This document shows positions 3,379 to 29,290 of a stretch of DNA of 40,277 bases, piece by piece (the first letter of the stretch is position 1; every line of letters begins with the position of its first letter). The notes below the pieces were generated by a model, which did not search any database, was not told the origin of the DNA, and saw only the letters and a program-made list of their open reading frames with translations. The position numbers and the translations under genes are program-made. The stretch lies in NCBI RefSeq assembly GCF_003859795.1, contig NZ_RQYI01000040.1:1-40277 (forward strand). Reading direction: 5' to 3'. Source of the DNA: Alloprevotella sp. OH1205_COT-284. GTDB taxonomy: Bacteria; Bacteroidota; Bacteroidia; Bacteroidales; Bacteroidaceae.

Positions 3379-4010
3379 CCTTTGGCTACACGTCAAACGT
3401 GTTTTTTAGGGGGGGCAATAACTCATTATGTGGCTTCCCCAATGGTATTTTCGTAAAAACGTCGAAAAACCTACACTGTTCTTTTTATGTCGCTGAATTT
3501 CAGTGAAATGGGAGTGTATATGGCGGTGTTTCGATATACATTGACAGAAGCTAAGTCAATGACACACAGACAGAAATGAATGTAGACAGATTTTCCCAAA
3601 ACCTACACTGTCTACATGGTTGCGGTTTCGGGCATCTGCACACTCTCGATGCCATGTGTAGGTTGTGATGACGAATGTAGTTGATTTCCCGTGTTGTCTA
3701 CATTTGCAACGGTCTATATATCTGTGCCTTAATAAAGGCAGTGTAGACAATGTAGATAAAAATAAGAAAAACTCTTGGTAAGGGTTGAAAGTTGCTTGTT
3801 TTTTACGAAGAATGGCCTCACTTCCTCTTCGGCTTGTCCGAATAGGCTTTAATACGTCGGAACGTACTTTACCTAAGAAGTAGATTAAACGGAGTAACGA
3901 GTAGAAAAATCTATCACAGACCTAAATTGCACCGGCTCCCACTTGGTTTTCTTCTTGATGAACTTGGTTTTCGACATAGGCTGAAAGTCCTTTCCTGATG
4001 TATAGGTTTG
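3379..4010 (-). repeat. Interspersed structured repeat, copy 1
   Basis: First of three related copies (others at 13844-14505 and 28695-29290). It holds the end hairpin ACACGT caa ACGTGT followed by TTTTTT (3388-3408), the block CTCATTATG (3422-3430), the nested pairs GAATGTAGACA 3578-3588 / TGTCTACATT 3695-3704 and AACCTACAC 3600-3608 / GTGTAGGTT 3656-3664, the tandem GTGTAGACAATGTAGATA (3741-3758), and one GTAACGAGTAGA (3894-3905). Compared with copy 2 it lacks about 39 nt covering the second and third CTCGTTA hairpins. The strand is given by the promoter-like motif seen in copies 2 and 3. It fills the gap between the integrase palindrome and ispE. Outer edges are approximate. Confidence 0.75.
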
Positions 4011-4065
4011 CAATCGGGATTGGAATAGGCTTTTGCCGAGAGCTCAAAAAGGGGAGAGTAGCGGG

Positions 4066-4896
4066 CTATTTATGCAGACGGGTTTGGAAGACGAAACAGT
4101 TTTGGAAACTGTCTTCCAATTCTGTCTGACTGCGATTGAAGAGCGCAAAAACGGTGGAACCGCTACCCGACATTGAGGCATAGGCGGCTCCCATGTCGTA
4201 CAGGGTTTGTTTTATTTCTGCGATTTCGGGATAATGCCGGAAAACGCTGTCTTCGAAGTCATTTTTCACGAGATCTTTCCATAGCTCGACGGGGTGCGAG
4301 ATGATGTCGGGGAGACTCTGTGAAGACGGCTTGGGGCGCACCATGGAGTAGGCTTCTTTGGTGGAAACGTGGATGTCGGGCTTCACCAACACCAAGTTCC
4401 AGCCTCTGAGGTCGAAGTCGATGTGGGTTAATTCATCTCCGATGCCGGTGGCATAGGCCGGCCGTGCGTGATAGAAGAATGCACAATCGGCACCCAAGCG
4501 CGATAGGCGATATTGAATGTCTTCCTCGTCCATGCGCAGGTCGTATTTCTCGTTGAGCAAACGCAACATAAAAGCTGCATCGCTGCTGCCGCCTCCCAAA
4601 CCGGCTCCGGAAGGGATGCTTTTATGCAGGCGAATCTCTATGGGAGGGAGTTGTTTGTAGTCTTCGCGCAGCTGATTGTAGACTTTTACGACAAGATTGT
4701 TGGACGAATCGCCGTCTAATGAAATCCCACTTTGGTGCAATCGGTAGGGTTGGTTGGAAGAGGGAAGAGATACGACTTCTAAGGTGTCGTGTAGGGGAAT
4801 GGGATAGAAAATGGTCTCGATGTTATGATAGCCGTCTTCACGACGTTCCACAATATTCAGGCCGATGTTTATTTTGCAACAAGGATATACAATCAT
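4066..4896 (-). CDS. ispE: 4-diphosphocytidyl-2-C-methyl-D-erythritol kinase
   Basis: IspE phosphorylates the 2-hydroxyl of CDP-methylerythritol with ATP, the fourth step of the non-mevalonate (MEP) isoprenoid pathway in the cytoplasm. The 276-residue protein is full length for the family. CKINIGLNIVERREDGYHNIETIF at the N-terminus holds the substrate Lys and the DGYH motif (21-24). PSGAGLGGGSSDA at 95-107 is the GHMP-kinase ATP-binding loop. SMSGSGSTVFALF near the C-terminus is the third GHMP motif. It lies 91 nt downstream of the amylase-family gene in the same direction, so it may be the last gene of a fabD transcript. Downstream of it lies repeat copy 1. Confidence 0.95.
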   Translation of the reverse strand: MIVYPCCKINIGLNIVERREDGYHNIETIFYPIPLHDTLEVVSLPSSNQPYRLHQSGISLDGDSSNNLVVKVYNQLREDYKQLPPIEIRLHKSIPSGAGLGGGSSDAAFMLRLLNEKYDLRMDEEDIQYRLSRLGADCAFFYHARPAYATGIGDELTHIDFDLRGWNLVLVKPDIHVSTKEAYSMVRPKPSSQSLPDIISHPVELWKDLVKNDFEDSVFRHYPEIAEIKQTLYDMGAAYASMSGSGSTVFALFNRSQTELEDSFQNCFVFQTRLHK

Positions 4897-4987
4897 AGCT
4901 TGAAAGAGTGAGTGGGGTTGTTTTTATGGCATTCGCCGACTGTTTATTCGGAGGAGCGAAAAAGAGATGGGGAGTTTTGTGCTTAAA

Positions 4988-6694
4988 CTACGGTAATGCA
5001 ATGGCAATGGCCGAGGCGTGATGAGGCGGAATGCAGATTTCCGAATAGCCGTCTTGGCACAGGGTTATGGATGCCGGAGTGTCGGATATGATGTCCTTTC
5101 CGTCGAAAACTCCTTCGGGAAGTGAAAGAAATTCAAAAGCATGCTTGGGGATATGTACGCCGATGCGAGCTTCCGTTTCTCCGAAATTGGCGACGCAAAG
5201 GATCAACTCGTCGGGAGAGCGGCGCAAGAAAGCAAAATGGCGATCGGGGTTGAGCCCTCTTTCTCCTGCATAGTTGGTGTACATGAGGTCGTAGAACAAG
5301 CCTTTTTCGAGGGCAGGGTGCATCGTTCTTAATCTCAAAATGTGACGATAAAACTCGTAGATCTCCCATTCTTGATCGGTAAGTATGGCCTTGGCTTTGG
5401 GCGTTCCGGTTTTGCCCAACGGTGGCAATGAGGCCAGTTTGCGCAGGCTTTGAGGACTCCAATAATCGAAGATCGTGGTGCGGCCGTCATGCCCCGAAAA
5501 GCCCTCTTTGTCCATTCCTTGTTCGCCCAGTTCCTGACCTGCATAGATCATCACGGGATTGGTGCCCATGAAACATTCTACGACCAAGGCCGGAAAGGCT
5601 TTGCGAGGATCGCCGCAAAAGAAGGGGGAGGCGATGCGCTGTTCGTCGTGATTTTCGAGGAAATAGAGCATGTGCCGCTTGATGTCATCCACCTGCTGCC
5701 AGCAATGGGTGATGGCGCTTGCCGGTGCCTGATGGTTGATGACGGCACGAAGCGTATCGTAAAGTCCGACTTTATCGTAAAGATAGTCGAACTTTCCGTG
5801 GTGAATGTAGTTTCGATAAAGTGCGGGATTATAGACCTCGGCGATAAATTCGATGTGAGGATATTCCGCTTTTATTTTCGTAATGGCATAGTGCCAAAAC
5901 TCGACCGGCACCATTTCCGCCATATCGCATCTGAACGCATCGACTCCCTTGGCCGCCCAAAAGCTCAAAATATGTGTCATTTTGAGCCATGTGTCGGGAA
6001 TGGGGGAGAAGTGGGGGGAGCGGCCGGCGGAGTAGTCCACTCCGTAGTTGAGCTTAATCGTTTCGTACCAATCGTTTTGAGAAGGGCAGGCAGAAAAATG
6101 ATCGTTTCCGGTGGCTTTGGCCGGGTGCTCCGAATAGGGGAGGGGCACTTCCGCTTCTTTGTTGATGTGGTCGAGGCAGAGAGAGACGCCTTGACAGTAG
6201 TAGAAGTTGTTGGAGGGCGAAAAGTGCATTTGAACGTCGTCGGATGCTCCCAAATCTTCCACACCTTTCGGAGCAACATCGGAATGATATTGTCGTGCAA
6301 CGTGGTTGGGCACAAAGTCAATGATCACTTTAAGACCGGCTTGGTGAGTTCGCTCCACAAGATGCTCAAACTCTTTCATACGATGCGTGACATCGACCGC
6401 CAAGTCGGGATCGACATCGTAATAATCCTTAATGGCATAAGGCGATCCGGCTTTCCCCTTGACGACCCAAGGGTGGTCTTTTCGGATGCCGTGTTGGGAA
6501 TAGTCGGTTTGGGTGGCATGCTCAATGATGCCGGTGTACCAAATGTGGGAAAAGCCGAAATCTCGAATGCGCTTTAATGCCGATTGGGTGAAATCATTCA
6601 TCTTGGCAGACCCATTTTCTGAATATGAGCCTCCTTCTTTGTTGGCGGAAATGGGATTTCCGTATATTCGGGTGAAGACCTGATAGATGTTCAT
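4988..6694 (-). CDS. GH13 alpha-amylase family glycosidase
   Basis: Member of the alpha-amylase family that hydrolyses or rearranges alpha-1,4/1,6 glucans. Of the 568 residues from the chosen start, the conserved regions are DFVPNH at 126-131 (region I), DAFRCDMAE at 252-260 (region II, nucleophile Asp257), FIAEVYN at 283-289 (region III, acid/base Glu286) and FLENHD at 345-350 (region IV, Asp350). The last 120 residues form the usual beta-sandwich C-domain. No signal peptide is visible, which suggests an intracellular enzyme acting on stored or imported glucan. I chose the Met at 6694 because MNIYQVFTRIYGN is the typical family start. The longer frame to 6754 would start inside the hairpin behind fabD. 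Exact specificity (amylase, neopullulanase or glucosidase) cannot be fixed. Confidence 0.9.
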   Translation of the reverse strand: MNIYQVFTRIYGNPISANKEGGSYSENGSAKMNDFTQSALKRIRDFGFSHIWYTGIIEHATQTDYSQHGIRKDHPWVVKGKAGSPYAIKDYYDVDPDLAVDVTHRMKEFEHLVERTHQAGLKVIIDFVPNHVARQYHSDVAPKGVEDLGASDDVQMHFSPSNNFYYCQGVSLCLDHINKEAEVPLPYSEHPAKATGNDHFSACPSQNDWYETIKLNYGVDYSAGRSPHFSPIPDTWLKMTHILSFWAAKGVDAFRCDMAEMVPVEFWHYAITKIKAEYPHIEFIAEVYNPALYRNYIHHGKFDYLYDKVGLYDTLRAVINHQAPASAITHCWQQVDDIKRHMLYFLENHDEQRIASPFFCGDPRKAFPALVVECFMGTNPVMIYAGQELGEQGMDKEGFSGHDGRTTIFDYWSPQSLRKLASLPPLGKTGTPKAKAILTDQEWEIYEFYRHILRLRTMHPALEKGLFYDLMYTNYAGERGLNPDRHFAFLRRSPDELILCVANFGETEARIGVHIPKHAFEFLSLPEGVFDGKDIISDTPASITLCQDGYSEICIPPHHASAIAIALP

Positions 6695-6712
6695 GTATTT
6701 CGAATGCGGAAG

Positions 6713-6762
6713 AGTATAAAATATGCCGATGCGCCATGCCTGCGGACATGACACATCGGCAT
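6713..6762 (-). terminator. Hairpin between fabD and the GH13 gene
   Basis: ATGCCGATG (6723-6731) and CATCGGCAT (6754-6762) form a 9-bp stem. On the minus strand it is followed by ATATTTTATAC. It lies 17 nt past the fabD stop and before the GH13 start, so it probably terminates or attenuates the fabD transcript. Confidence 0.55.
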
Positions 6763-6779
6763 CATCGTGAAAAATGAGG

Positions 6780-7682
6780 TCACATGTTCGTTCCTTTTAC
6801 GACGACGTCGCCATTGCCATGGCAGATTTTGGAAATCATGCCTTGCAAAGCCTTTCCGGGGCCGCACTCGGTAAACTCTGTGGCACCTGCGGCCACCATG
6901 CTGTTGATCTCTTTCGTCCAGAGCACGGAAGCGGTCAGCTGAGAAATGAGGTTGGCTTTGATCTCTTCGGGCTCGGTGTGAGCCGCGCCGTCGACATTTT
7001 GGTAAACCGGGCATTTCGGGGTTTGAAATGTTGTTTCGTTGATCGCTGCCTCCAATTCTTCTTTGGCCGGCTGCATAAGCGGGGAGTGAAAAGCTCCGCT
7101 AACGGGAAGGATCAAGGCGCGTTTTGCTCCGGCTTCTTTGAGGCGGGTACATGCCGTTTCCACAGCTTCCTTTTCTCCGGAGATGACCAGCTGCCCGGGG
7201 CAGTTGTAGTTGGCGCAAATGACGACTTTTCCGGTTTCTTCGCTGACAGACTTGCAGATCTTTTCGATCTCTGCATCTTGCAGCCCGATGACGGCGGCCA
7301 TGGTGCCGGGACGTGCATCGCAAGCGGCCTGCATGGCCAAAGCGCGCTTGGAAACGAGGCGAAGCCCGTCTTCAAATTTCAAACAGCCGGCGGCGGTGAG
7401 TGCCGAAAGTTCTCCCAAGGAGTGGCCGGCCACCATATCGGGGCGGAAGTCTTCGCCCAAACACAACGCACTGATCACGCTGTGCAGGAAAACTGCGGGT
7501 TGAGTGACTTTGGTTTGTTTGAGTTCCTCGTCGGTACCGCCGAACATGATGTCGGTGATTTTGAAACCGAGAATTTCGTTGGCTTTTTCAAAATAGTCTT
7601 TGGCAATGGGGTGATTTTCGTAAAGTTCTTTTCCCATACCCACAAACTGGGCACCCTGACCGGGGAAAACGTATGCTTTCAT
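6780..7682 (-). CDS. fabD: Malonyl-CoA:ACP transacylase
   Basis: FabD moves malonyl groups from CoA to acyl carrier protein to feed fatty-acid synthesis in the cytoplasm. The 300-residue protein is of normal length. FPGQGAQFVGMG at 6-17 is the conserved N-terminal loop, VAGHSLGE at 84-91 holds the nucleophile Ser88, SKRALAMQ at 111-118 supplies the Arg (113) that holds the malonyl carboxylate, and GAFHSPLMQ at 197-205 supplies the catalytic His199. The start at 7682 is preceded by an A-rich leader and a -7 box (CAAATATA on the plus strand, 7759-7766). It is upstream of the GH13 gene, with a hairpin between. Confidence 0.95.
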   Translation of the reverse strand: MKAYVFPGQGAQFVGMGKELYENHPIAKDYFEKANEILGFKITDIMFGGTDEELKQTKVTQPAVFLHSVISALCLGEDFRPDMVAGHSLGELSALTAAGCLKFEDGLRLVSKRALAMQAACDARPGTMAAVIGLQDAEIEKICKSVSEETGKVVICANYNCPGQLVISGEKEAVETACTRLKEAGAKRALILPVSGAFHSPLMQPAKEELEAAINETTFQTPKCPVYQNVDGAAHTEPEEIKANLISQLTASVLWTKEINSMVAAGATEFTECGPGKALQGMISKICHGNGDVVVKGTNM

Positions 7683-7758
7683 ATTTTTTCTGATTAAAAT
7701 TATTGCGATTCAATCTTGTGCGGGCGAAGAAAACCTTTCTTTTTGCCCATGAGGATGA

Positions 7759-7766
7759 CAAATATA
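7759..7766 (-). promoter_or_regulatory. -7 box upstream of fabD
   Basis: Read on the minus strand this is TATATTTG, the Bacteroidetes -7 consensus, about 77 nt before the fabD start. The -33 element is weak (TTC about 20 nt upstream), so only the -7 part is well supported. Confidence 0.45.
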
Positions 7767-7851
7767 AGGAAAAACTACCGACTTATGAAGATTTCAATAA
7801 AAAAATAGTGTAATTGCATCGCCTCGGAAGTCGTTCTGAGAGTTATAGTTC

Positions 7852-7902
7852 AAAAAACATTCCCGAAACATGCGGCCGATGTGCCGACATGTTTCGGGAA
7901 TG
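7852..7902 (-). terminator. Terminator after the Skp/OmpH-like gene
   Basis: CATTCCCGAAACATG (7858-7872) and CATGTTTCGGGAATG (7888-7902) form a perfect 15-bp stem. On the minus strand it is followed by TTTTTTG, so it ends the transcript of the Skp/OmpH-like gene and separates it from fabD. Confidence 0.9.
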
Positions 7903-7921
7903 CCGAAAGATACCAAGTTGC

Positions 7922-8521
7922 TTATTTTTTCTTTTGTGCTGCTTTGTAACGCTTGTTCATTCCCTCGATCACTTCTTTGGTGAGGTTTAATTTCTCGTCC
8001 GCATACAGAAGATTGTCCCCCTGTTTGGCAACGATGATGCTATATCTTTTTTGCTTGTTGTAGTCTTTGAGGAATGACTTTAAGCTGTCGCGCAGGGTGT
8101 TGTTGAAGTGTTCTTGTTCGGAAGCCATTTGCTTGGTCAGCCGTTGTTCCAGCTGGGCACCGTCTTGTTGGAGCTTTTGAATGCGTTGTTGTGCGGCTTG
8201 CGCTTGTTCCTGAGAAGTAAAGCCGCCATTTTGCATTTTCTGTTGAAACTCCATGTACGCTTTTTCTATTTGGCTCATCTTGCCGGCCATTTGCGCTTCA
8301 AACTGCTTGCTCTTTGATTCGAGTTCGGTCTTTTGTTCAATGCAGAAGGTGTATTGTGTCAATAAGGAGTCGATTTCCACAAAAGCGATCTCTTTGTTGC
8401 CGGTGATGGGAGCGGCAGCTTTTTCCACTCCTTCTTTTTGAGGAGTTTTGGATTCGTCTTTGCAGCTTGTCGCAAATGCTAATGCCGACAAAGCAACTAT
8501 CATTAAAGATTTGGAAGTCAT
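7922..8521 (-). CDS. OmpH/Skp-family periplasmic lipoprotein
   Basis: The 199-residue product starts with a lipoprotein signal (LSALAFATSC, lipidated Cys20). A long charged helix pair from about 50 to 170, rich in Gln, Lys and Glu (for example LEQRLTKQMASEQEHFNNTLRDS), matches the coiled-coil prongs of the Skp/OmpH chaperones that hold unfolded outer-membrane proteins. KRYSIIVAKQGDNLLYADEKLNLTKEVIEGMNKRYK at the end is the conserved beta-strand and helix of the OmpH body domain. Unlike classical Skp it is lipid-anchored, as is common in Bacteroidetes paralogues. It lies 35 nt downstream of the small membrane protein gene and ends at a strong terminator. Confidence 0.85.
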   Translation of the reverse strand: MTSKSLMIVALSALAFATSCKDESKTPQKEGVEKAAAPITGNKEIAFVEIDSLLTQYTFCIEQKTELESKSKQFEAQMAGKMSQIEKAYMEFQQKMQNGGFTSQEQAQAAQQRIQKLQQDGAQLEQRLTKQMASEQEHFNNTLRDSLKSFLKDYNKQKRYSIIVAKQGDNLLYADEKLNLTKEVIEGMNKRYKAAQKKK

Positions 8522-8556
8522 GATGATGCGTATTATGTTGCGGAAAAGATAAAAAG

Positions 8557-8766
8557 TCAGAGCGAAGGATGTTCTTTAACGGCATGTGGGTTTTCGGTGC
8601 GACTCTCGCGGTCTTGGGTAGTGGCGCAATGCACTCCCTCGCGTGCAAGAGCTTTGTTCGAACTTACATGCCCATTTACAAATTTACCTTTGATAAAAAT
8701 CCCCACAGAGAGCAACGCTACCGATATTCCAACAATAATTAATGTGGGGAGAAGTATCTTTTCCAT
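8557..8766 (-). CDS. Small conserved Bacteroidetes membrane protein
   Basis: A 69-residue protein with one N-terminal transmembrane helix (about 5-26) followed by a polar tail. The tail contains KGKFVNGHVSSNKALAREG and HCATTQDRE, a pattern I recognise from short conserved membrane proteins of Bacteroidales whose role is unknown. A good promoter precedes it, and the OmpH-like gene follows 35 nt later in the same direction, so the two are probably co-transcribed. No function is assigned. Confidence 0.75.
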   Translation of the reverse strand: MEKILLPTLIIVGISVALLSVGIFIKGKFVNGHVSSNKALAREGVHCATTQDRESRTENPHAVKEHPSL

Positions 8767-8789
8767 AATAATTTTCTAAATTTGCGGTG

Positions 8790-8821
8790 CAAATATACCA
8801 CAACCCGATTGAAATAACAAG
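8790..8821 (-). promoter_or_regulatory. Promoter of the small membrane protein / OmpH-like operon
   Basis: On the minus strand CTTG (8818-8821 as CAAG) is separated by 20 bases from TATATTTG (8790-8797 as CAAATATA). Both fit the Bacteroidetes consensus. The start codon follows after about 23 nt. Confidence 0.65.
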
Positions 8822-8871
8822 TTTTTTGCACAATTTAAAATGTGGAAAAACAAACCTAATTCGACAAAAAT

Positions 8872-10320
8872 ATGATTAAACTTTCGCCTAAGGCCGTTTT
8901 TGATTGTTTTGCCATGATCAATGCGGTGCCCCGTCCCTCTAAAAGAGAAGAGAAAATACAAGCCTTTCTTGTGCAATTCGGAAAAGATTTGGGACTCGAA
9001 ACGAAAATGGACGATGCCGGTAACGTGCTGATCAAGAAACCGGCCACTCCCGGCTATGAGCATTGCAAGACGGTGATTCTGCAAAGCCACCAAGACATGG
9101 TGTGTGAGAAAAACAAAGATGTGGAATTTGATTTCGACAATGACCCCATTCAAACCTATGTGGATGGTGAGTGGTTGAAAGCGAAAGGTACCACATTGGG
9201 AGCCGATGACGGTATCGGAATGGCGATGCAAATGGCTGTTCTTCAAGCCACGGATTTGAAGCACGGCCCTATCGAGTGTGTATTCACCAGCGATGAAGAA
9301 ACGGGACTGACGGGAGCCATGGGGATGAAAGCCGGATTTATGTCGGGCGATTATCTGATCAACCTTGACTCCGAAGACGAAGGCCAGATTTTTGTGAGCT
9401 GTGCGGGTGGTGTGCGCACCGAAGCCACATTTACCATAGAAGAAGAAGCAATGCCCGAAAACTTCTGTGCCGTAAAACTCTACGTGAAAGGTTTGACGGG
9501 AGGACATTCGGGAGACGATATCAATAAAAAACGTGCCAATGCCAATAAACTTTTGGTGCGCTTCATTGATAATATGATGACAAAGACGGATGTGCGAATT
9601 ATTGATATTCAAGCCGGCGGTTTGCACAACGCCATTCCTCGCGAAGCCACGGCCATCATTGCCGTTTCGTCCTCGTTCAAGGAGCAACTGAAAGACGAAC
9701 TGAAAGTTTTTGAACACAACGCAAAAGAGGAGTTTTCGACAACGGAGCCGGATATGCTGATTGGCATGGAAGAAGCCGTCTGCCCTGAAAAATGTTTGGC
9801 CGAAATTCCGGCAAGACAAATGGTGAAGAGCCTCGTCGTTGTACACAATGGAGTTTTTGCGATGAGTCAAGACTTAGAGAATTTTGTGGAAACGTCGAGT
9901 AATTTGGCCAACATTCGTCGCCAAGGCAATCAAGTCATCGTTACGACTTCGCAGCGTTCGAGCGTAGCCAGCAATTTGGACAATATGGCTTCGATCGTGA
10001 GAGCGGCTTTTGAACTCGGAGGAGGTCAATGTGTGACCAACGAGGGTTATCCCGGTTGGAAGATGAATCCCAACAGCGAGATCCTCAAAGTGGCGGTAGA
10101 CAGTTATAAGCGCATCTTCTCCAAAGAGCCTTTGATCTTAGCCATTCATGCCGGTTTGGAGTGTGGATTGTTTAGTGAGAAATATCCTCATTTGGACATG
10201 ATCAGTATCGGCCCCACGATGCGCGGAGTACACTCGCCCGACGAACGTTTGTTGATTCCGACGGTTCAATTGGTTTGGGATCATTTGGTAGATATTCTTC
10301 AAAACATTCCGGCTCGGTAA
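8872..10320 (+). CDS. pepD: Aminoacyl-histidine dipeptidase (M20 family)
   Basis: Cytosolic di-zinc dipeptidase that cleaves Xaa-His and related dipeptides. The 482-residue length is normal. Metal ligands and catalytic residues are visible: QSHQDMV with His73 and Asp75, LGADDG with the bridging Asp112, SDEETG with Glu142 and Glu143, and LINLDSEDE with Asp166. The lid domain follows (about 200-390), and the last zinc ligand is in SIGPTMRGVHSPDERL near 455. It starts 105 nt from a divergent operon. A hairpin lies after its stop and overlaps the region before the next gene. Confidence 0.93.
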   Translation: MIKLSPKAVFDCFAMINAVPRPSKREEKIQAFLVQFGKDLGLETKMDDAGNVLIKKPATPGYEHCKTVILQSHQDMVCEKNKDVEFDFDNDPIQTYVDGEWLKAKGTTLGADDGIGMAMQMAVLQATDLKHGPIECVFTSDEETGLTGAMGMKAGFMSGDYLINLDSEDEGQIFVSCAGGVRTEATFTIEEEAMPENFCAVKLYVKGLTGGHSGDDINKKRANANKLLVRFIDNMMTKTDVRIIDIQAGGLHNAIPREATAIIAVSSSFKEQLKDELKVFEHNAKEEFSTTEPDMLIGMEEAVCPEKCLAEIPARQMVKSLVVVHNGVFAMSQDLENFVETSSNLANIRRQGNQVIVTTSQRSSVASNLDNMASIVRAAFELGGGQCVTNEGYPGWKMNPNSEILKVAVDSYKRIFSKEPLILAIHAGLECGLFSEKYPHLDMISIGPTMRGVHSPDERLLIPTVQLVWDHLVDILQNIPAR

Positions 10321-10347
10321 TAATATCCGCTTTCCGATCAGCCTGCT

Positions 10348-10392
10348 CGGCATTTCTCTTTTTCTTTCTTTGAAAGACGGGGAGAAATGCCG
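10348..10392 (+). terminator. Hairpin after pepD
   Basis: CGGCATTTCTC (10348-10358) and GAGAAATGCCG (10382-10392) form an 11-bp stem. There is no T-tract, so it could be a factor-dependent terminator, a 3'-end stabiliser or an attenuator. The ATG at 10387 lies inside the right arm, which argues against using that codon as a start. Confidence 0.5.
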
Positions 10393-10461
10393 GAGGCGGA
10401 TGTGGAGGAGAATTTGTGCTTGAAGCCGAATTTGAAGCCAAAAATAAAATCTCGTTTTTTC

Positions 10462-11928: not shown

Positions 11929-11933
11929 TAATC

Positions 11934-13598: not shown

Positions 13599-13637
13599 CC
13601 GAAGCCTCGTGTCGTGGGGCTTCGGGCTTTCTTTTTC
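13599..13637 (+). terminator. Terminator after dnaB
   Basis: CCGAAGCC (13599-13606) and GGCTTCGG (13618-13625) form an 8-bp stem, followed by GCTTTCTTTTTC. Its surroundings closely resemble the terminator after purT at 39595-39638. Confidence 0.85.
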
Positions 13638-13843
13638 AAAAAGCAGCCTCCTCGCGTCAAATAAAGACGTTTCTTGTGTTTCGGTGATTTTACTTGCTCT
13701 TGCCCAAATTTTGCATTCATCTTTCTGAGGATTTTCCATAAAAACGACAAAATCCGTATGGTGATGCCGCAGCAAAACCACATCTCCACCACAACAAAGT
13801 CGAGGCAAAACTACACCCTATTTTCTCTGATGTGTTCGAACGA

Positions 13844-14505
13844 ACCTTGGGCAATACGTCAAACGTGGTTTTTAGAGGGGCAATCGCTCGTTATGCGGGC
13901 CTCTCCAAGGTTCTTTTCGTAAAAATGCCGAAAAACATACACTACGCGTTTCATCTCACTGAAATTCAGCGAAATGAAAGTGTATACAACAAATTGTTAA
14001 GTCAATGACACACAGATAGAAATGAATGTAGACAGATTTTCCCAAAACCTACACTGCCTACACGAACGATTTCGCGCCTTTGCACGTCTTCCCGACGCAG
14101 TGTGTAGGTTGCAGCAACGAATGTAGGTAATTTTCCGCATTGTCTACATTCGCAACCATCTATATATCTACAACTTAACAAGGAAAGTGTAGACAATGTA
14201 GACAAAAATAAGAAAAACTCTCTGTATAGGCTGAAAGTTGCTCTTTCACGAAGAATGGCCTCACCTTCTCTTCGATTTGTACGGATATGTTTTTAATGCG
14301 TCGGAACACCATCTTACTCCGAAAGCTGTGTAAACGAAGTAACGAGCAGAAAAATCTACTCGTTACTTAAAAATTTCTACTCGTTATGTAGAAATATCTG
14401 TCACTGATCTAATTTTCATAAACTCTCGCTTGCTTCTTTTTTCAATGAATTGGGCTTTCGATATTGTCTGAAAAGGTCTTTTCTCATGTATGGTGTCTTT
14501 TGCTG
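13844..14505 (-). repeat. Interspersed structured repeat, copy 2
   Basis: The most complete copy. It lies between the convergent dnaB and lrgB genes. It holds CTCGTTATG at 13887-13895, a hairpin built on TTTCAT/ATGAAA with inner CTGAA/TTCAG (about 13948-13977), GAATGTAGACA 14024-14034 / TGTCTACATTC 14141-14151, AACCTACAC 14046-14054 / GTGTAGGTT 14102-14110, the tandem GTGTAGACAATGTAGACA 14187-14204, GTAACGAGCAGA 14339-14350 / TCTACTCGTTAC 14355-14366, and CTACTCGTTATGTAG 14377-14391. Read on the minus strand it has a -7-like TATTTTTG (14203-14210). Outer edges are approximate. I see no convincing gene in it. Confidence 0.8.
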
Positions 14506-14595
14506 TCAGAAATAGAATTTAATATGCCGACAGACCGTTTCGAGGTTCTCGGTCGTGAGTTTTGCTGTGGTTTAGGGCGCATCAAAGTAGGCTGA

Positions 14596-19861: not shown

Positions 19862-19893
19862 CAAAAATACGACAATGCAACGGATTACACAAT
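19862..19893 (-). promoter_or_regulatory. Promoter of the DUF187 gene
   Basis: On the minus strand ATTG (19890-19893 as CAAT) lies 20 bases before TATTTTTG (19862-19869 as CAAAAATA). The start codon follows 35 nt later. Confidence 0.6.
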
Positions 19894-20034
19894 ATTTGCT
19901 CTTCAAAAGAAAAGAGAAGCCTCCATGAAATGCGGGAAAAGGCATTTGTGCGAGATAAAACCACGCCTCACCGCTATGCCAAGGGCTGTGTGGCAGCCGC
20001 GCATCGGGAGGGGAAGGCAAATGGTGAGTATGTT

Positions 20035-21267: not shown

Positions 21268-21315
21268 GGGAAAAAGTTTATTTGGCGAAGTTACGCATTT
21301 CTTAAAATAAAATAG

Positions 21316-21323
21316 TAATTTTG
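21316..21323 (+). promoter_or_regulatory. -7 box of serS
   Basis: TAATTTTG fits TAnnTTTG and lies 33 nt before the serS start. The -33 element is not clear at normal spacing. Confidence 0.45.
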
Positions 21324-21355
21324 CCGTTAGAAAACATACCGATACATTAGAATAT

Positions 21356-22633: not shown

Positions 22634-22716
22634 GCTTCTCTTTTCGTTGAACGAACTATTTTTTGTCGAATGCGGAATGCCGATCGACTTTTCGTTCAAA
22701 AAAGCGGATCACCTCC

Positions 22717-22802
22717 AACAGTCGCCTCTTACAAAGAACTTTGAGCGAAAAAACGTTTGTAAATGGTTTCTCGTCCGAAGTTCTTTGTAAGAGGCGGCTG
22801 TT
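22717..22802. repeat. 25-bp inverted repeat with 36-nt loop
   Basis: Arms 22717-22741 (AACAGTCGCCTCTTACAAAG...) and 22778-22802 are reverse complements except for one T/C position that still pairs as G-U in RNA. No T-tract follows. The rest of 22634-22960 holds no gene I can support. Confidence 0.85.
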
Positions 22803-22951
22803 CGGTTGAGTTGGCCGCCGGCCGAAAGTCGCAGCAAAACCACACATTTCGCACAACGAAACCTCTGCGAAATTGCCCATACTCTTTTTTCTTTTTCTCC
22901 GCGATCAGCTCAAACGCATCTCTATTGGATTGTCGTTTTTTTGGGGGGGGC

Positions 22952-23007
22952 AGCAGATAAAAAGAAAGGCCGCATCAAAACCAATAGAGTTTTGACACGG
23001 CCTCTTT
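22952..23007 (-). terminator. Terminator of the rpmB-rpmG-DUF4295 operon
   Basis: GGCCGCATCAAAAC (22968-22981) pairs with GTTTTGACACGGCC (22989-23002), with one mismatched step. On the minus strand a T-rich tract (TTTCTTTTTATC) follows. It also has T residues on the plus side, so it may stop serS read-through as well. Confidence 0.85.
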
Positions 23008-23048
23008 AATGTATTGAGAAACGTAGTTACTCGAATTTCGGATACAGA

Positions 23049-23207
23049 TTAGTTTTTGAAGAAATCTGCAACGTCTTCATTGCGTACCATTTGCTCATCA
23101 AAGATGTAAGCACCGGTTTTGGAGCTCTTCACCATTTTGATCACCTTGGTATACGAACGTCCATCGGTTTTTCCGGATTGGAGCGAAGCGACTGTTTTCT
23201 TTGCCAT
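23049..23207 (-). CDS. DUF4295 family small protein
   Basis: A basic 52-residue protein: MAKKTVASLQSGK at the start, KVIKMVKSSKTGAYIFDEQMV in the middle and a DVADFFKN end. It is the DUF4295 protein that in Bacteroidota is almost always encoded right behind rpmB and rpmG, and it is thought to be ribosome-associated. The gene starts 22 nt after the rpmG stop. In many relatives ftsY follows; here a terminator follows instead. Confidence 0.9.
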   Translation of the reverse strand: MAKKTVASLQSGKTDGRSYTKVIKMVKSSKTGAYIFDEQMVRNEDVADFFKN

Positions 23208-23229
23208 GGTTTATGTGTGTGAGAGTTGA

Positions 23230-23418
23230 TTATTTGATTTCTTTGTGAACCGTCATGCGTTTGAGAATGGGGTTGTATTTCTTCAATTCCAAACGTTCGG
23301 GAGTGTTCTTTCGATTTTTCGTGGTGATGTAGCGGCTCGTACCGGGCATACCACTTTCTTTATGTTCGGTGCATTCGAGAATAACTTGAACGCGATTGCC
23401 TTTAGCTTTCTTTGCCAT
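23230..23418 (-). CDS. rpmG: 50S ribosomal protein L33
   Basis: A 62-residue basic protein with [18 protein letters not shown] and the [21 protein letters not shown] core of L33. Only one cysteine is present, so it is a zinc-independent (C-minus) form. It sits 11 nt after rpmB and 22 nt before DUF4295 and is clearly part of one operon. Confidence 0.96.
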
Positions 23419-23429
23419 GATTGTGATGA

Positions 23430-23690
23430 TTAGCCGATTACTTTAATATCTTTCCAAGCGCAATAACCATTGTTTACTGCACTGTTCAACGCTGCGTCAA
23501 GACCCAATTTGTTGATCAAACGCAGGCCTGCTGCCGAGATTTTGAGAGAAATCCAGCAATCTTGCTCAACATAATAGAACTTCTTAGTAAACAAGTTCGC
23601 ATCAAAGGTGCGTTTAGTGCGACGCTTTGAGTGAGAAACGTTGTTGCCAATCATGGCTTTTTTACCTGTAATTTGACAAATCTTAGACAT
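23430..23690 (-). CDS. rpmB: 50S ribosomal protein L28
   Basis: An 86-residue L28. [27 protein letters not shown] is the conserved N-terminus, and [20 protein letters not shown] is the conserved second half. The longer frame that begins at 23780 would run through the promoter, so the Met at 23690 is the start. It is the first gene of the rpmB-rpmG-DUF4295 operon. Confidence 0.97.
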
Positions 23691-23740
23691 TACTATCTGT
23701 AATTTTGTGTTTCTAATTTTTATTATTCCCAATCGAGGGG

Positions 23741-23771
23741 CAAAAATACAATTTAATTTCTTATCTGACAA
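23741..23771 (-). promoter_or_regulatory. Promoter of the rpmB operon
   Basis: On the minus strand TATTTTTG (23741-23748 as CAAAAATA) is preceded by CTTG at 20 bases. The start codon is about 50 nt downstream. 23772-24062 holds no supported gene. Confidence 0.6.
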
Positions 23772-24062
23772 GCTTTTCATGAAAAACCATAAGTGTAAAA
23801 AAAGAGATTAACCTTTAATTGTAAACACCGAAAAGCAAAAACTCTTATCGGAAACTTAGTGAAAAGTATTCTTGTGGGGACGGCTGCAAGGCTTATAGAC
23901 GTTTTCTCAGAGTCGCGATTGACGGAGTGGGCAATGGAGTGAACCGCAAAATCATTGTTCTAAACGTTTTCTTTTGCTTTTCCCACATGCCCGAACGTAT
24001 CCTTATTTTTGTTTTTGGTTCGTTACGAAAACGGATTTGCAATTCAAAAAAATATAATCTTC

Positions 24063-24093
24063 ATTGCAATTTGCACGTTATTTTGTATCTTTG
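24063..24093 (+). promoter_or_regulatory. Promoter of the putative metal-uptake operon
   Basis: ATTG (24063-24066), 19 bases, TATCTTTG (24086-24093). Start would be near 24100. The following leader contains two hairpins (CCTCA/TGAGG at 24102-24116 and AAATCTT/AAGATTT at about 24119-24139). Confidence 0.65.
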
Positions 24094-24179
24094 CACGCAT
24101 CCTCAGCGGATGAGGGTAGAAATCTTGATAATAAGATTTTGATTTCAAGATAAATATAAAAATACTCGTTATCTTTTTT

Positions 24180-24530
24180 ATGAAACGAACCAAACGTGTA
24201 AGACAAGTATGGGCATGGGTGCTGATTGCAGCTTTCATGTTTGTCTTTGTCGGACAGAATTTTCATGCTACGTTTGGACATAAAGATGCCGAGCAGACCG
24301 AGCAGGGATGCTGCCATCATAAAGGTGTCGCCGCAAATGGAGATCTCCCCGTCTATAAGGAGATCTGCCATATTTGTGATTTCACTTTTTTCAATGCCGA
24401 AGCCTCTGCTTATTGCTTGTACACTTTTGTTTCCGGGTATAACGAAACGAAACTTCTTGATTTTGACGCTCTGTTGATTTATCGCCCTATTTTTGCGATA
24501 AATGCCCATTCTCCCCCATTGTTTTCTTAG
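24180..24530 (+). CDS. Small Cys/His-rich membrane-anchored protein
   Basis: A 116-residue protein with a basic start and one hydrophobic segment (about 10-27) that serves as a signal or anchor. A periplasmic part follows with a cluster of metal-binding residues: HATFGHKD, GCCHHKG and EICHICDF (a CxxC-like pair next to His). I recognise this layout from small Bacteroidetes proteins encoded beside TonB receptors. It is probably a metal chaperone or a sensor for the operon; the metal is unknown. The TonB receptor gene starts about 260 nt downstream, and the same promoter probably serves all three genes. Confidence 0.65.
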   Translation: MKRTKRVRQVWAWVLIAAFMFVFVGQNFHATFGHKDAEQTEQGCCHHKGVAANGDLPVYKEICHICDFTFFNAEASAYCLYTFVSGYNETKLLDFDALLIYRPIFAINAHSPPLFS

Positions 24531-24787
24531 TTCTCTGCTTCCTTTTATAAGGTCATCATGTTCTGATGATCGGGATATTTTTGTCTTTTCATGAAAGACA
24601 GGGGAAGCCATTTCCTTTTTTTATTACTCTTCCGTGTTGTCTTTTTTCATCGTGCTTTTGAAACCGACGATGTGAAAAGAAGGCTCGAAAGGGGAATTGT
24701 ATCACATTTTCTTTGCTCATTGTGAGGAAAGTGTGGCGATCTGCACCGCTAAAACGGAGCTGTCGTTCTCATATCCTTAGGGAAACA

Positions 24788-26926
24788 ATGGATAAAGTCT
24801 TTTTTGATTTTAAGAAAACCTTCTTGCTCTTCCTCGGTCTGTTTTTGGGGATGGGCGCGGGAAAGGCCGTGACGGACACGGATAGCATCATCTTTCATTC
24901 GGAAAGAGAGCCTTTTCCCAAGCGCACGATCAGTGTGGGAGAGGCTGTTGTAAAGGCGGTTCGCCGCAGCGTGAGCGGCAATGCCGTGAGCCACCGCATT
25001 TCGGCAACAGACATTCAACGTTCATTGGGAAAGTCGCTTACCGATGTTTTGCAGACGGTGGCCGGTGTGTCATCGGTTCAAACCGGAAGTAATGTCGCAA
25101 AGCCCGTCATTCAAGGCATGCAGGGCACTCGCATCCTCATCTTGAACAACGGCGTCCGCCAGACCGGACAGCAATGGGGCATCGATCACGCGCCGGAGAT
25201 TGACCAGCATAGCACTCAAAGCATCCATGTGGTGAAGGGTGCCGAGTCGGTGAGATATGGTGCCGAGGCACTTGGCGGCATCATCTTGCTGGAACAAAAC
25301 GCACTTCCTTATCGACAAAAAGACATCACCGGAAGTGTCGCCACGCTTTATGGCACGAACGGCCGACGATATGCCCTTTTGGGGCGTGTCGAGGGGAGCT
25401 TGCCTTTTGTGAACAACGTGGCGTGGCGGTTGCAAACGACATGGGGAAACGGGGGCGACCGTTCGACTGCCCGATATTTGCTGAACAATACCGGCAGTGG
25501 GGAGATGAACCTCTCGGCTGCCATTGGCTGGAAAGACGAAAACCGGAAAGCCGAGTTTTTTTACAGTCGTTATGATCATCGTTTCGGGGTGATGAGAAGT
25601 GCACAAATGGGAAACGAGGAGCTGTTGACGGAGCGCATCAAATTGGGACAACCGACGCAGATTTATCCTTTTCGGAGAGCGATTGATTTTCCGTATCAGC
25701 ATGTCGTACACCACAACGCGACTTTCAAACTCCATTATTTCAGCGAAACACTCGGAACATGGCTTTGGCAAACGGCCTTTCAGCAGGACGACCGCACCGA
25801 AAACCGCATACGCCGCTTGAACCGCTCCGACATTCCTGCCGTTTCGTTGCATCTGCATTCTTTTCAAAATCAGCTGAATTGGCGTAAGGATTTTGGTGAA
25901 TGGAGCACGGAGGCCGGCGGACAGTGGGTGAGTATCAACAATCGAAATCAAGCCGGCACGGGTGTTGTGCCCATTATTCCCAACTATACCGAAAACAGTG
26001 TGGGCGGCTATGTGATGCAGAAATATGCGAAAGGCAAATGGGGAGCGGAGGCGGGATTGCGCTACGATCACCAAACGACCAAAGCGGCAGGATATGATTG
26101 GACGGGAAAACTGTATGGCGGTACGCGGCATTTTGACAATCTGACCTATTCCGTCGGGGCAAAATATCGCTGTTCTCCCTCCTTGGCCGTGACGTCCAAT
26201 TTGGGCATGGCTTGGCGCGCCCCCCACGTCTATGAGTTGTATAGCAACGGCAATGAGCTGGGCTCCGGAGTGTTTGTGCGTGGAGATGAACATCTCTCTT
26301 CGGAACACGGATACAAATGGATTACTTCCGTCGAGTTTCGTCACCCAAACATAAAGCTGCGCGCAGACGGATTCTTGCAGTGGATAGACAATTATATCTA
26401 TGACGAGCCTACGCACAAAAACATCACCGTAGTTTCGGGAGCTTATCCGGTTTTCCAATACAAACAGACTTCCGCCTTTTTCCGCGGTGTGGATGTGGAC
26501 GCTTCGTGGACGCCCCTGCGCAGTGTAGGTTATCGTACACAGTTGTCGTTGATTTGGGCGCATGAACATAAAACCGGCAATTACCTTCCCTATATTCCGG
26601 CACCGCGAATAACGCAAGAGGCGACTTGGTCGTCCAAACTCGGGAGAGACGGAAAGGTGTGGGTAGGAATAAAGCATCTGTTTGTGGCACGACAAACTCG
26701 TTTTAATCCTGCCACCGACTTGATTGCAACCACGCCTCCCGCCTACGGACTTTGGGGAGGAGAAATAGGATGGGAGTATTCGCCGGGAGCGAAGCAAAAG
26801 CTGCGTTTGCTTGTTGCGGCCGACAACCTTTTTAACTTGCAATATAAAGAGTACACCAACCGTGCTCGCTATTATTCCCACGACTTGGGACGCGACATTC
26901 GCTGTTCTTTGAGTTGGATGTTTTAG
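24788..26926 (+). CDS. TonB-dependent outer-membrane receptor
   Basis: A 712-residue outer-membrane receptor. A signal segment (MDKVFFDFKKTFLLFLGLFLGMGAG) is followed by a plug domain of about 140 residues: TDVLQTVAGVSSVQTGSNVAKPVIQGMQGTRILILNNGVRQ and SIHVVKGAESVRYGAEALGGIILL. A 22-strand barrel follows, ending in an aromatic residue (LSWMF). It lacks the carboxypeptidase-like N-terminal extension of SusC proteins, so it is of the classic siderophore, haem or metal type. His residues are frequent (DHAPEIDQHS, HVVHHNATFKLHY). I use the Met at 24788 because it starts the signal peptide; an in-frame upstream ATG at 24713 adds 25 basic residues. It sits between the Cys/His membrane protein and a His-rich lipoprotein. 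Confidence 0.9.
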   Translation: MDKVFFDFKKTFLLFLGLFLGMGAGKAVTDTDSIIFHSEREPFPKRTISVGEAVVKAVRRSVSGNAVSHRISATDIQRSLGKSLTDVLQTVAGVSSVQTGSNVAKPVIQGMQGTRILILNNGVRQTGQQWGIDHAPEIDQHSTQSIHVVKGAESVRYGAEALGGIILLEQNALPYRQKDITGSVATLYGTNGRRYALLGRVEGSLPFVNNVAWRLQTTWGNGGDRSTARYLLNNTGSGEMNLSAAIGWKDENRKAEFFYSRYDHRFGVMRSAQMGNEELLTERIKLGQPTQIYPFRRAIDFPYQHVVHHNATFKLHYFSETLGTWLWQTAFQQDDRTENRIRRLNRSDIPAVSLHLHSFQNQLNWRKDFGEWSTEAGGQWVSINNRNQAGTGVVPIIPNYTENSVGGYVMQKYAKGKWGAEAGLRYDHQTTKAAGYDWTGKLYGGTRHFDNLTYSVGAKYRCSPSLAVTSNLGMAWRAPHVYELYSNGNELGSGVFVRGDEHLSSEHGYKWITSVEFRHPNIKLRADGFLQWIDNYIYDEPTHKNITVVSGAYPVFQYKQTSAFFRGVDVDASWTPLRSVGYRTQLSLIWAHEHKTGNYLPYIPAPRITQEATWSSKLGRDGKVWVGIKHLFVARQTRFNPATDLIATTPPAYGLWGGEIGWEYSPGAKQKLRLLVAADNLFNLQYKEYTNRARYYSHDLGRDIRCSLSWMF

Positions 26927-26965
26927 GTTTATTTTTTATTTATCATCATTATTATTTCAACACAC

Positions 26966-28537
26966 ATGAAACGAAACTTTTTGAAATTCTTGGGAGCAGT
27001 TTTGCTCACGCTGCCTCTTGCTTTTGCCACGACAGCCTGCTCCGATCCCGACGAACCTGCCAATGAAAAAGAAAACAAACTCCATGAAGATCCCTCCAAG
27101 GCCGTGATCACGCTGACGAAAGGGCGCATGGCCGATTTTGATCCGGCTGCCGGCACTTTCTCTCCCGAAGGAGAGTTTGTTTCGCTCGGAGAAACACAAA
27201 CGTATGCCATGGTGCTTCATCCGGAAAAGGGTTGGCAGTTGGAAAATGGAAGTATCGAAGGTTTTTATGTGGAGGATGTCACAGAAAATCCCGATGTGGT
27301 TTATTCGTTGGATATACAGTATTTCAACGCCCAAGGCAAGAGCATCAACCACGAATTTATGGAAGAGGGGCAAGACGCCATTCATCAGCATTTCTTCTCT
27401 TATTACGAAAATCGAGTGCGTGTGCGTAAACCGGAAAATCTGCCCTATGTCTATCACTATGCCGATAGAGATAAGGGCGGAAAGTTCATCGCCGAAAAGA
27501 ACCCTTTGGGATTTCATGGCTATATTCAATTCAAAGACAAATTCCACTTCGAACTTTCCATCGACCTCATGCACGCCGCCAAAAGTAAATACAACAACGA
27601 CGGATCGGTTTCCCCTTATTACTCTCCTTCGCCCGAACAAGTCGGAACGGCTCTTTGGGACATCAACATCAAAATTCCCGTTTACATCAAGAAGTTGAGC
27701 CATTTTGCCGACGTTGCTTCTGCCGAACTGATCTTCATAGAGGGACATTTGCACGGACACCCGAAATTTCATGAAAATCTCTATTCCAAAGAAGTGAAAT
27801 ATATCGGTCGTCGCGATACGCTCCGCTATACATTGACGAATGGAAAATGGATGGCAGATGCGGCAAATTCCCAAAGAGTGGTTTGCGAATCCAATCACCC
27901 CCACTATGCTTTGCTCGTAAACTATTATGATAAAGATCACAACTTGATCAACCACCTGTTTGCCGATCAACAAAACGCTTCTCTTCACCGTCATTTCTTC
28001 TATGTGACGGATGTGGCTCCCACCTTTGACGGAGAAGCGGAAAGCGACGATAAGAACGGCCAAGGCTTCTTTGACTATCACTATGTGGATACCGATCCTT
28101 GGAATCAAACCATAAAGTTTGACGGAGCCAAATGGATTGGCGAAACAAATCCCGTTGGTTTCAAAGGATACTTCGGCTTTAAGAAAGCGAGAAAACAATT
28201 TACGATGAATGTGCGTCTTCTGTATTCTAAAACAAAGGAGGTGTTGGGTAAGGGAGGCAGTCTGCCTTGGCATCATATTCCTGCGATCTCTGTAATGGCC
28301 GATACGGAAGCTCTCCCCACCATTCCCGTTCCCATGATTGTTTACATGGATAGCAATGAGCGTTCTCTTGAAGTGGAATTGGATACGGCCGAGTCCGATC
28401 TTTCGCCCGAAGGACTTCGCACCATTCGCTCTCTCCAACGTGCCTACGGCATTGGTTTTGAGGAAGCCGTTTCCGAATTGTATTGGAACTTCAACGGTGT
28501 GCGTCCCCCTCACTCCAAGAAAGGCTTCTGGTTCTGA
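26966..28537 (+). CDS. His-rich surface lipoprotein with internal duplication
   Basis: A 523-residue lipoprotein: signal with ATTAC lipobox, Cys25, then SDPDEP, an acidic run like the Bacteroidetes surface-export signal. The body is an internal duplication: INHEFMEEGQDAIHQHFFSYYE with YHYADRDKGGKFIAEKNPLGFHGYI in the first half, and INHLFADQQNASLHRHFFYVTD with YHYVDTDPWNQTIKF...ETNPVGFKGYF in the second. His pairs in each repeat (HxHFF, YHY), HLHGHPKFH between them and WHHIP near the end suggest metal or haem binding. The gene starts 39 nt after the TonB receptor and ends at a strong terminator. It probably hands a ligand to the receptor. Family not named with certainty. Confidence 0.72.
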   Translation: MKRNFLKFLGAVLLTLPLAFATTACSDPDEPANEKENKLHEDPSKAVITLTKGRMADFDPAAGTFSPEGEFVSLGETQTYAMVLHPEKGWQLENGSIEGFYVEDVTENPDVVYSLDIQYFNAQGKSINHEFMEEGQDAIHQHFFSYYENRVRVRKPENLPYVYHYADRDKGGKFIAEKNPLGFHGYIQFKDKFHFELSIDLMHAAKSKYNNDGSVSPYYSPSPEQVGTALWDINIKIPVYIKKLSHFADVASAELIFIEGHLHGHPKFHENLYSKEVKYIGRRDTLRYTLTNGKWMADAANSQRVVCESNHPHYALLVNYYDKDHNLINHLFADQQNASLHRHFFYVTDVAPTFDGEAESDDKNGQGFFDYHYVDTDPWNQTIKFDGAKWIGETNPVGFKGYFGFKKARKQFTMNVRLLYSKTKEVLGKGGSLPWHHIPAISVMADTEALPTIPVPMIVYMDSNERSLEVELDTAESDLSPEGLRTIRSLQRAYGIGFEEAVSELYWNFNGVRPPHSKKGFWF

Positions 28538-28616
28538 TTTTAGGACTTGAAGCAATTTCCTCCGGACTTTCGGAGCACTGTTCCCGACTTTGAACATCTC
28601 CGTTTCTCACTTCAAA

Positions 28617-28655
28617 AAAAGCGAAGCCGGCTTCATGCAAGACGGCTTCGCTTTT
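28617..28655 (+). terminator. Terminator after the His-rich lipoprotein gene
   Basis: AAAAGCGAAGCCG (28617-28629) and CGGCTTCGCTTTT (28643-28655) form a 13-bp stem with a T-run in the right arm. Confidence 0.85.
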
Positions 28656-28694
28656 CGATCTTTCAGATCCTAACGAAAGTCTGAATCGCCGAGG

Positions 28695-29290
28695 AAAGAA
28701 GCAGATGGGAACTTGTGAAAATTAGGTCAGTGACAGATATTTCTACATAACGAGTAGAAAATTCTAAGTAACGAGTAGATTTTTCTGCTCGTTACTTCGT
28801 TTGCACAGCTTTCGGAGCAAGATGCGTTCCGACGCATTAAAAATATATCCGTACAAACCGAAGAGAAGGTGAGGGCATTCTTCGTGGAAAAGCAACTATC
28901 TGCCCCTACCGGGAGTTTTTCTTATTTTTGTCTACATTGTCTACACTATCCTTGTTAAGTTATAGATATATAGTCGGTTGCGAATGTAGACAATGCGAAA
29001 AATTACCTACATTCGTTGCTGCAACCTACACGCTGCATCGGAAAGGCGTGCAAAGGTGCGAAATCGTTCGTGTAGGCAGTGTAGTTTTTGGGAAATCTGT
29101 CTACATTCTTTCTTATCTGTGTATCATTGATTTAACCTCTTTCCGTGTATATTGGAAATTTGTTGTATACACTTTCATTTCGCTGAATTTCAGTGAGATG
29201 AAACGCGTAGTGTATGTTTTTCGGCATTTTTAAAGTCCGCATAACGAGCGATTGCCCCCTAAAAAACACGTTTGACGTGTTGCCAAAGGT
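28695..29290 (+). repeat. Interspersed structured repeat, copy 3 (inverted)
   Basis: Copy in opposite orientation to copies 1 and 2. In this direction the order is CTACATAACGAGTAG 28743-28757, GTAACGAGTAGA 28768-28779 / TCTGCTCGTTAC 28784-28795, TATTTTTG 28923-28930, tandem TGTCTACATTGTCTACAC 28929-28946, GAATGTAGACA 28982-28992 / TGTCTACATTC 29098-29108, AACCTACAC 29023-29031 / GTGTAGTTT 29079-29087, the CTGAA/TTCAG hairpin near 29170-29215, CGCATAACGAGCG 29238-29250 and ACACGTTTGACGTGT 29266-29280. It lies between the lipoprotein terminator and the rpmE2 promoter. The open frame at 28928-29233 is broken by a frameshift relative to the other copies, so I do not call it a gene. Confidence 0.8.

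Follow-up and report, generated by a model that had tools for sequence, protein, structure and literature searches.

A dispersed family of gene-free intergenic arrays in Alloprevotella, built on a 9-bp word whose spelling differs between species

The BIME/REP clusters of Escherichia coli are composite inverted repeats that lie at the 3' ends of genes and are bound by known host proteins; bending, insulation or the buffering of supercoils has been proposed for the BIMEs. REPINs and tagged REPs are inverted word pairs in extragenic space, with doublets that are kept better than singlets, and most REPs lie downstream of, or between, genes of unidirectional or convergent orientation and form several species-specific families (PMC3116915, PMC3733652, accessible portions). 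The PINSR repeat is intergenic, thought to be non-coding, lineage-specific and highly amplified (177 and 184 copies), and according to the accessible part of its description it has no terminal inverted repeats and shares about three quarters of its places between two strains (PMC4755523). BrickBuilt, a MITE of Porphyromonas gingivalis, is an intergenic, gene-free element present in 19 copies in one lineage only; the available sections of the report describe a 23-nt minisatellite, IS5-type terminal repeats and putative duplications in three of four intact copies (PMC4596501). A literature search, which left many subscription papers out of reach, returned no description in Alloprevotella of arrays of the kind reported here.

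The window, i.e. the whole stretch of 40,277 nucleotides that was analysed (contig NZ_RQYI01000040.1 of Alloprevotella sp. OH1205_COT-284), holds three copies of an intergenic repeat (Table 1). The initial annotation had suggested that this repeat could be a non-coding RNA element, a regulator-binding array or the non-coding part of a larger transfer element. All three copies are present where it had placed them, and they share their sequence: with copy 2 (13800-14540) as the query, the agreement is 84% with copy 3 over query positions 22-674 (E 1.4e-217) and 76% with copy 1 over positions 46-559 (E 5.7e-102). The deletions it had named were also recovered, namely a 3'-proximal block of about 40 nt, present in copies 2 and 3 and absent from copy 1, and about 20 nt missing from copy 3 near 29235; in addition, copy 2 lacks 21 nt near 13995. 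Its boundaries held only approximately, the best-conserved parts being the cores given in Table 1, and the ends of the window copies are not sharp, with no clear terminal inverted repeats. All three copies lie between genes, as had been proposed: copy 1 has ispE (GHMP kinase domains) on one side and a fragment of an integrase on the other, copy 2 is flanked by dnaB and a converging lrgB, and copy 3 is bordered by the 3' end of an unassigned gene without a Pfam match and by the gene for ribosomal protein L31. The repeat indeed has no gene of its own. In 40 copies each of the six frames contains a mean of 5.2-9.4 stops per copy, which rules out a protein-coding core.

Table 1. Positions in the window of the three repeat copies and their parts
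Feature	Positions	Strand	Remarks
Copy 1 of repeat	3379..4010	+	core 3447-3930
Copy 2 of repeat	13844..14505	+	core 13913-14417
Copy 3 of repeat	28695..29290	-	core 28717-29232
Hallmark tandem doublet of 9-bp words, copy 1	3741..3758	+	GTGTAGACA ATGTAGATA
Hallmark tandem doublet of 9-bp words, copy 2	14187..14204	+	GTGTAGACA ATGTAGACA
Hallmark tandem doublet of 9-bp words, copy 3	28929..28946	-	
Word lattice, copy 1	3468..3758	both	11 words, 9 bp each: 3468-, 3514+, 3533-, 3580+, 3600-, 3609-, 3656+, 3675+, 3695-, 3741+, 3750+
Word lattice, copy 2	13934..14204	both	10 words; eleventh match, at 14386, in the 3' block
Word lattice, copy 3	28929..29218	both	12 words; thirteenth match, at 28740, in the 3' block
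3' block, copy 2	14340..14386	.	TAACGAGYAGA, both orientations
3' block, copy 3	28748..28794	.	TAACGAGYAGA, both orientations
TAACGAGTAGA within the 3' block of copy 1	3895..3905	+	

Several other features of the window were recorded. A tyrosine recombinase fragment (PF00589, 189 aa; 2684-3302) adjoins copy 1, and its start lies within an inverted repeat of 43 nt that is nearly perfect (3211-3302). At 39879-39966 there is another inverted repeat, whose 39-nt arms match perfectly and are separated by 10 nt. There are two more short intergenic repeats (13617-13653 and 39616-39652; 13768-13798 and 22830-22860), one with CTTCGGGCTTTCTTTTTCAAAAAGC and resembling a terminator, the other with GCAAAACCACA, and stretches like these are found upstream of several arrays elsewhere.

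The repeat is dispersed throughout the genome to which the window belongs (G000; 2.3 Mb in 93 contigs). A search of this genome yielded 40 long matches, including the three of the window, with 70-86% identity apart from the query itself; these are the 40 of 96 candidates that were scored, and the alignment built from them does not contain the further copies revealed by a scan for the hallmark tandem doublet. The doublet occurs at 52 sites exactly, at 61 with up to one mismatch and at 65 with up to two, whereas its reversed pattern, used as a control, occurs at none. As a few places have more than one hallmark site, the number of copies is about 60, or roughly one in every 40 kb. Additional copies in the same genome, the test that the initial annotation had set, thus exist in number. 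Several contig ends (C12:42, C26:42, C16:143, C14, C19, C11) hold arrays or 21-bp repeats; the draft assembly is thus probably interrupted by them, and the number of copies is a minimum. Placement was assessed by simple ORF calling, which in at least one case (copy 3) picked an antisense frame, and the following counts are therefore rough: the neighbours of the 40 loci are convergent in 16, tandem in 16 and divergent in five, with one neighbour not found in three; both neighbours run against the array direction in 12 of the tandem loci and along it in four; and the downstream gene points toward the array in 29 of the 39 loci for which one was called.

A lattice of words makes up the conserved part of the repeat. 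The core is 481-486 nt long in 28 of the 40 aligned copies, and in longer cores the extra length lies mainly in the 3' block with TAACGAGTAGA. Its conserved parts are about 11 copies per core of the 9-bp word rTGTAGACA ([AG]TGTAGAC-like), on both strands. A 7-mer version of the word occurs 10.2 times per copy compared with 0.66 times in shuffles, and word columns are conserved at 91% versus 80% for other columns. The word is about 60-fold denser inside the elements (149 in 37,193 bp) than outside (26 in 398,295 bp), where it is not avoided, the 26 found comparing with 12 expected from a Markov model of all DNA examined, elements included. TGTA/TACA alone occurs 14 times in the consensus against a shuffle mean of 4.7, yet one extreme shuffle reached 14. 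The 9-mer words have no inner palindrome; the spacer between inverted words is looser and partly palindromic, around CTGA..TCAG. The steps between neighbouring words in the 40 copies follow a rule according to orientation: (-,+) steps measure 43-44 bp in 102 of 156 cases, (+,-) steps 22-23 bp in 110 of 119, (+,+) steps 9 or 19 bp in 77 of 84 and (-,-) steps 9 or 26 bp in 55 of 63. Of these distances, 43-44 bp is close to four turns of B-DNA and 22-23 bp to two, and 9 bp is the length of the word. Common descent accounts for part of this constancy among the copies of one genome.

The TAACGAGTAGA motif of the 3' block represents a second repeat class, with 113 places in G000 (64 on the plus and 49 on the minus strand; control 1 and 1), among them the window sites in Table 1. 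Often it forms arrays with a period of 21, located at contig ends and apart from the word arrays. Its counterparts are of the CCTCAGAGGTAGA type in G047/Lung230 and of the CGTCGGAGATTTTT type in G042/G045, two sets of relatives described below, so that this class also looks species-coded. At L075, L077, L031 and L032 (G047, G008, G020), short hairpin-forming TTTCTAC/GTAGAAA blocks at the 3' ends of genes resemble the 3' block of the word arrays.

Inverted words are able to pair, and the core has a nearly constant length, so that a structured non-coding RNA, with transcription from some 60 loci, has to be weighed; the initial annotation had inclined to this reading. The RNAalifold consensus is lower in energy than 30 column-shuffled alignments (-18.3 versus a mean of -1.9, sd 1.9), and single copies outfold their shuffles (z -0.3 to -5.1 in 12 copies). 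Inverted words would, however, produce the former result, and their symmetry can explain the latter; a folded single strand is a possibility that the energy relative to column shuffles allows. Arguing against an RNA is the shallowness of the fold, about -18 kcal/mol for some 480 columns, with the same value on either strand (-18.3 each). Covariation, which the initial annotation had proposed as a check, is hardly present: in a consensus fold of -18.4 kcal/mol the covariation term is -0.67, and any change on both sides is seen in six of its 47 predicted pairs. G-U exceeds A-C alike on both strands (63:21 and 41:7). Inverted symmetry without strand preference is what would be expected of inverted protein sites in duplex DNA. 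No Rfam family reached threshold within the window; in six further loci, at E<=1, the matches were overlapping ones to FopS and, below threshold, to GibS, at one place beside one array of L004. The FopS small RNA (RF04319, E 7.4e-10) lies there at 2101-2166 on the minus strand and adjoins the array. On balance the RNA reading is improbable.

Related elements were found in other Alloprevotella genomes. The consensus core as a query matched two of 58 genomes, the own genome and, by short 3' pieces, G047, in which these pieces led to an element family of its own. G047 and Alloprevotella sp. Lung230 carry the same kind of elements and are likely one genome. In a scan covering 84,980 species, a collection from which the own genome may be absent, the G047 doublet GTGAAGGCAGTGAAGGCAAAAA was found in 46 stretches (47 sites), all of them from Lung230. 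The own-genome doublet had no match in the genome-contig or viral-contig collections, where its genome is perhaps lacking, and the Lung230 doublet had none among viral contigs. A generic doublet with a 9-bp period matched eight of the 58 genomes (control, 1 match), with 58 sites in G047, 15 in G045, 13 in G000, 11 in G042, five in G065, two each in G073 and G010 and one in G023. Among 399 genomes of the family, multi-copy matches are confined to Alloprevotella, and 11 genomes outside the genus have one match each, about the control rate of 10. Among 393 genomes of the order, a GTGAARG version gave a single match, in an array-like stretch of G178. All these counts are lower bounds, because exact patterns miss arrays with other words.

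The carrier species spell their words differently, with the exception of the sisters G042 and G045, whose main words GTGAAGGTT/GTGAAAGCA are identical. The main words are GTGTAGACA/ATGTAGACA in G000, GTGAAGGCA in G047/Lung230, GTGTAGGAT/GTGTAGGAA in G065 and GTGTAGACA/GTGTAGATA in G073. One element of the own genome (G000:C24:40442, L195) combines the GTGAAGGC spelling with ATGTAGACA and shows a CGCG end; it is possibly an intermediate form. The spacing recurs in the relatives. In Lung230, a distant relative with at least 47 elements, inverted words are 41-43 bp apart in 62 of 80 steps and (+,-) steps measure 23 bp in 23 of 36; in the seven elements of G065 and G073 the inverted-word steps are 44-45 bp in seven of seven, and (+,-) steps are 23 bp in only two of seven. 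Left doublets of Lung230 have a step of 8 bp in 28 of 59 and of 9 bp in 15 of 59, and for the other species the 9-bp (+,+) step is in part a consequence of how their elements were chosen, namely by a doublet of this period. Not every carrier has the full geometry: G042 and G045 possess the end doublets and lack the 43-bp inner modules. That species re-spell the word and keep a spacing rather than a fold speaks further against an RNA.

Distances between left and right doublets cluster at helical steps in 41 Lung230 elements (94-95, 104-105, 114-116, 125-126, 138-142, 148-151, 158-159 and 169, besides 67, 181, 189 and 259). The phasing (R 0.57 at 10.95 bp) was reached by none of 3000 random sets; with each length counted once, 3 of the 3000 random sets reached it, as did 36 of 3000 jittered ones. 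The elements of G042 and G045 have end doublets only, two per element, at a distance that is usually 182-184 bp. Phasing of these distances is clear in 23 elements, a set from which one member of each of six orthologous pairs had been removed (29 to 23 distances) and which is not fully independent, as L235 and L237, the partners of L204 and L203, were retained; it is weak with each length counted once (60 of 3000 random and 212 of 3000 jittered sets).

The sister species G042 and G045, whose long aligned pieces are mostly 82-94% alike, allow the arrays to be followed locus by locus. Six of the 11 G042 loci pair with G045 array loci, and when the remaining five were traced in G045 by their flanks, two carried an array and three were empty, so that eight of 11 places are common to both and no single locus is indispensable. 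In the six orthologous pairs 1 of 192 doublet positions changed, compared with 232 of 982 in the intervening DNA (11-45% by pair; p 3e-19), a comparison biased toward conserved doublets since both sides were found by fitting the doublet pattern. The two loci found by their flanks are free of this bias, and there 1 of 64 doublet positions changed. Taken together, the eight orthologous elements have changes at 2 of 256 word positions. Words that stay the same in changing surroundings are not what a dead insertion would leave.

The arrays must nevertheless spread, because the own genome and Lung230 have them mostly at different places, three sister loci are empty and subfamilies with variant words coexist. 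Of 205 flanking ORFs, 23 have a match in the 46 Lung230 loci, and a few of these 23 are near an array in both genomes (L038/L132, 67%; L039/L145, 38-51%). Such a distribution would suit a MITE-like non-autonomous mobile element in which the words are binding sites for a transposase supplied in trans and the paired ends need helical phase to synapse within a short element. The multiple copies, the variant-word subfamilies side by side, the three of 11 G042 loci empty in G045 and the clear terminal inverted repeats of Lung230, G042 and G045, with symmetric ends CTCGCGCG...CGCGCGAG, agree with this possibility. Arguing against it are the retention of the words at each locus after speciation, which dead insertion does not explain, the window copies without sharp ends and the target-site duplication, whose value for 49 elements from Lung230, G042 and G045 does not exceed the control (0.96 versus 0.87, sd 0.15); the three empty G045 loci are too diverged to fix exact insertion ends. 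Moreover, no mobility gene recurs among 950 flanking ORFs. Two neighbour families recur at four or more loci of one genome, neither of them a mobility gene: one consists of open frames inside the repeat itself and the other is presumably ABC-transporter-like. In G073 a protein encoded about 500 bp from an array (L191, 6905-8026), which by eye we take to resemble IS110-type transposases, has no equivalent near the other array of that genome. We regard the MITE-like reading as rather unlikely, though more probable than the other alternatives.

The lack of a recurring mobility gene also weighs against the larger transfer element of the initial annotation, as does the lack of any match to the VirE-type, BT4734-like domain PF08800 in G000. 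This domain occurred in one of eight genomes searched, G044, in a gene on a 3.4-kb stretch in which no array was seen, and a VirE-linked element is therefore unsupported.

REPIN/RAYT-type repeats, in which inverted word pairs are copied by a Y1 tyrosine transposase, share with the arrays inverted, extragenic and species-specific words, and the doublets that are better kept than the spacer in the six G042/G045 pairs would also fit. The words, however, have no palindrome, whereas a REP has a tag and a palindrome of 20-40 bp, and each array has about 11 of them. Y1_Tnp (PF01797) had no match in G000, G042 or G045, and G047, G065, G073 and G023 have one match each and G010 four; at E<=0.001 the domain is present in 28 of the 58 Alloprevotella genomes. 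Unless the few per cent of the genome that the assembly lacks contain a RAYT, this reading is largely refuted and has very little probability left.

On this evidence the arrays are not a standard mobile element. Dispersed repeats of bacteria are usually ascribed to a transposase or to RNA, and here neither fits well. Of the three options of the initial annotation, the word lattice, its spacing, its density and the constraint at each locus favour the regulator-binding array. In the model that we prefer, each copy is probably a gene-free, double-stranded docking array for a putative sequence-specific DNA-binding protein. We infer a dedicated protein, with words that co-evolve with its specificity. 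It would recognise inverted pairs of words along one helical face and would fold the array into a compact nucleoprotein body; the spelling of the words and the specificity of the protein would shift together; and the arrays would spread by rare duplication and then be kept at their locus by selection. Most speculatively, the folded body might bend the DNA, insulate operons from each other or buffer supercoils between them, a role suggested by the place of the arrays, mostly beside the 3' end of the downstream gene.

Taken further, the arrays may embody a geometric DNA code, a proposal that we make tentatively and consider somewhat less probable than its negation. A putative protein system would read, in about 60 intergenic arrays, a 9-bp word set at fixed helical steps of roughly 43, 22 and 9 bp, a whole species would re-spell the word at hundreds of sites with the geometry kept, and the protein and its sites would co-evolve as a unit. 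If true, the arrays would belong to a new system, chromosome-organising or selfish, distinct from REPINs, MITEs and RNA elements. Constraint on the words at each locus, together with a spacing common to species of different spelling, makes the arrays a natural experiment in the joint evolution of a putative DNA-binding protein and its hundreds of sites; the word can serve as bait for that protein, and the results may bear on other lineage-specific repeats of Prevotella-like bacteria, such as PINSR.

Among the known systems, the BIME/REP clusters of E. coli resemble the arrays as composite inverted repeats at the 3' ends of genes; they differ in having known protein partners, in place of a putative one, and the array word differs between species. 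PINSR resembles them in being intergenic, thought to be non-coding, lineage-specific and amplified, and differs in its length of 188 bp versus about 480 bp and in its genus, a comparison made by description only; the accessible part of that description, unlike the present one, mentions no word lattice or spacing rule (PMC4755523). BrickBuilt, as far as the available sections describe it, is likewise intergenic, gene-free, multi-copy and limited to a lineage, and its 23-nt minisatellite is not seen in the aligned cores (PMC4596501). The REPINs share extragenic inverted word pairs, better-kept doublets and species-specific families with the arrays, which differ in that G000, G042 and G045 have no RAYT match. 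Judged by the accessible portions of the REPIN literature, the words differ as well: in place of palindromes of 20-40 bp, an array has about 11 words at fixed steps (PMC3116915, PMC3733652).
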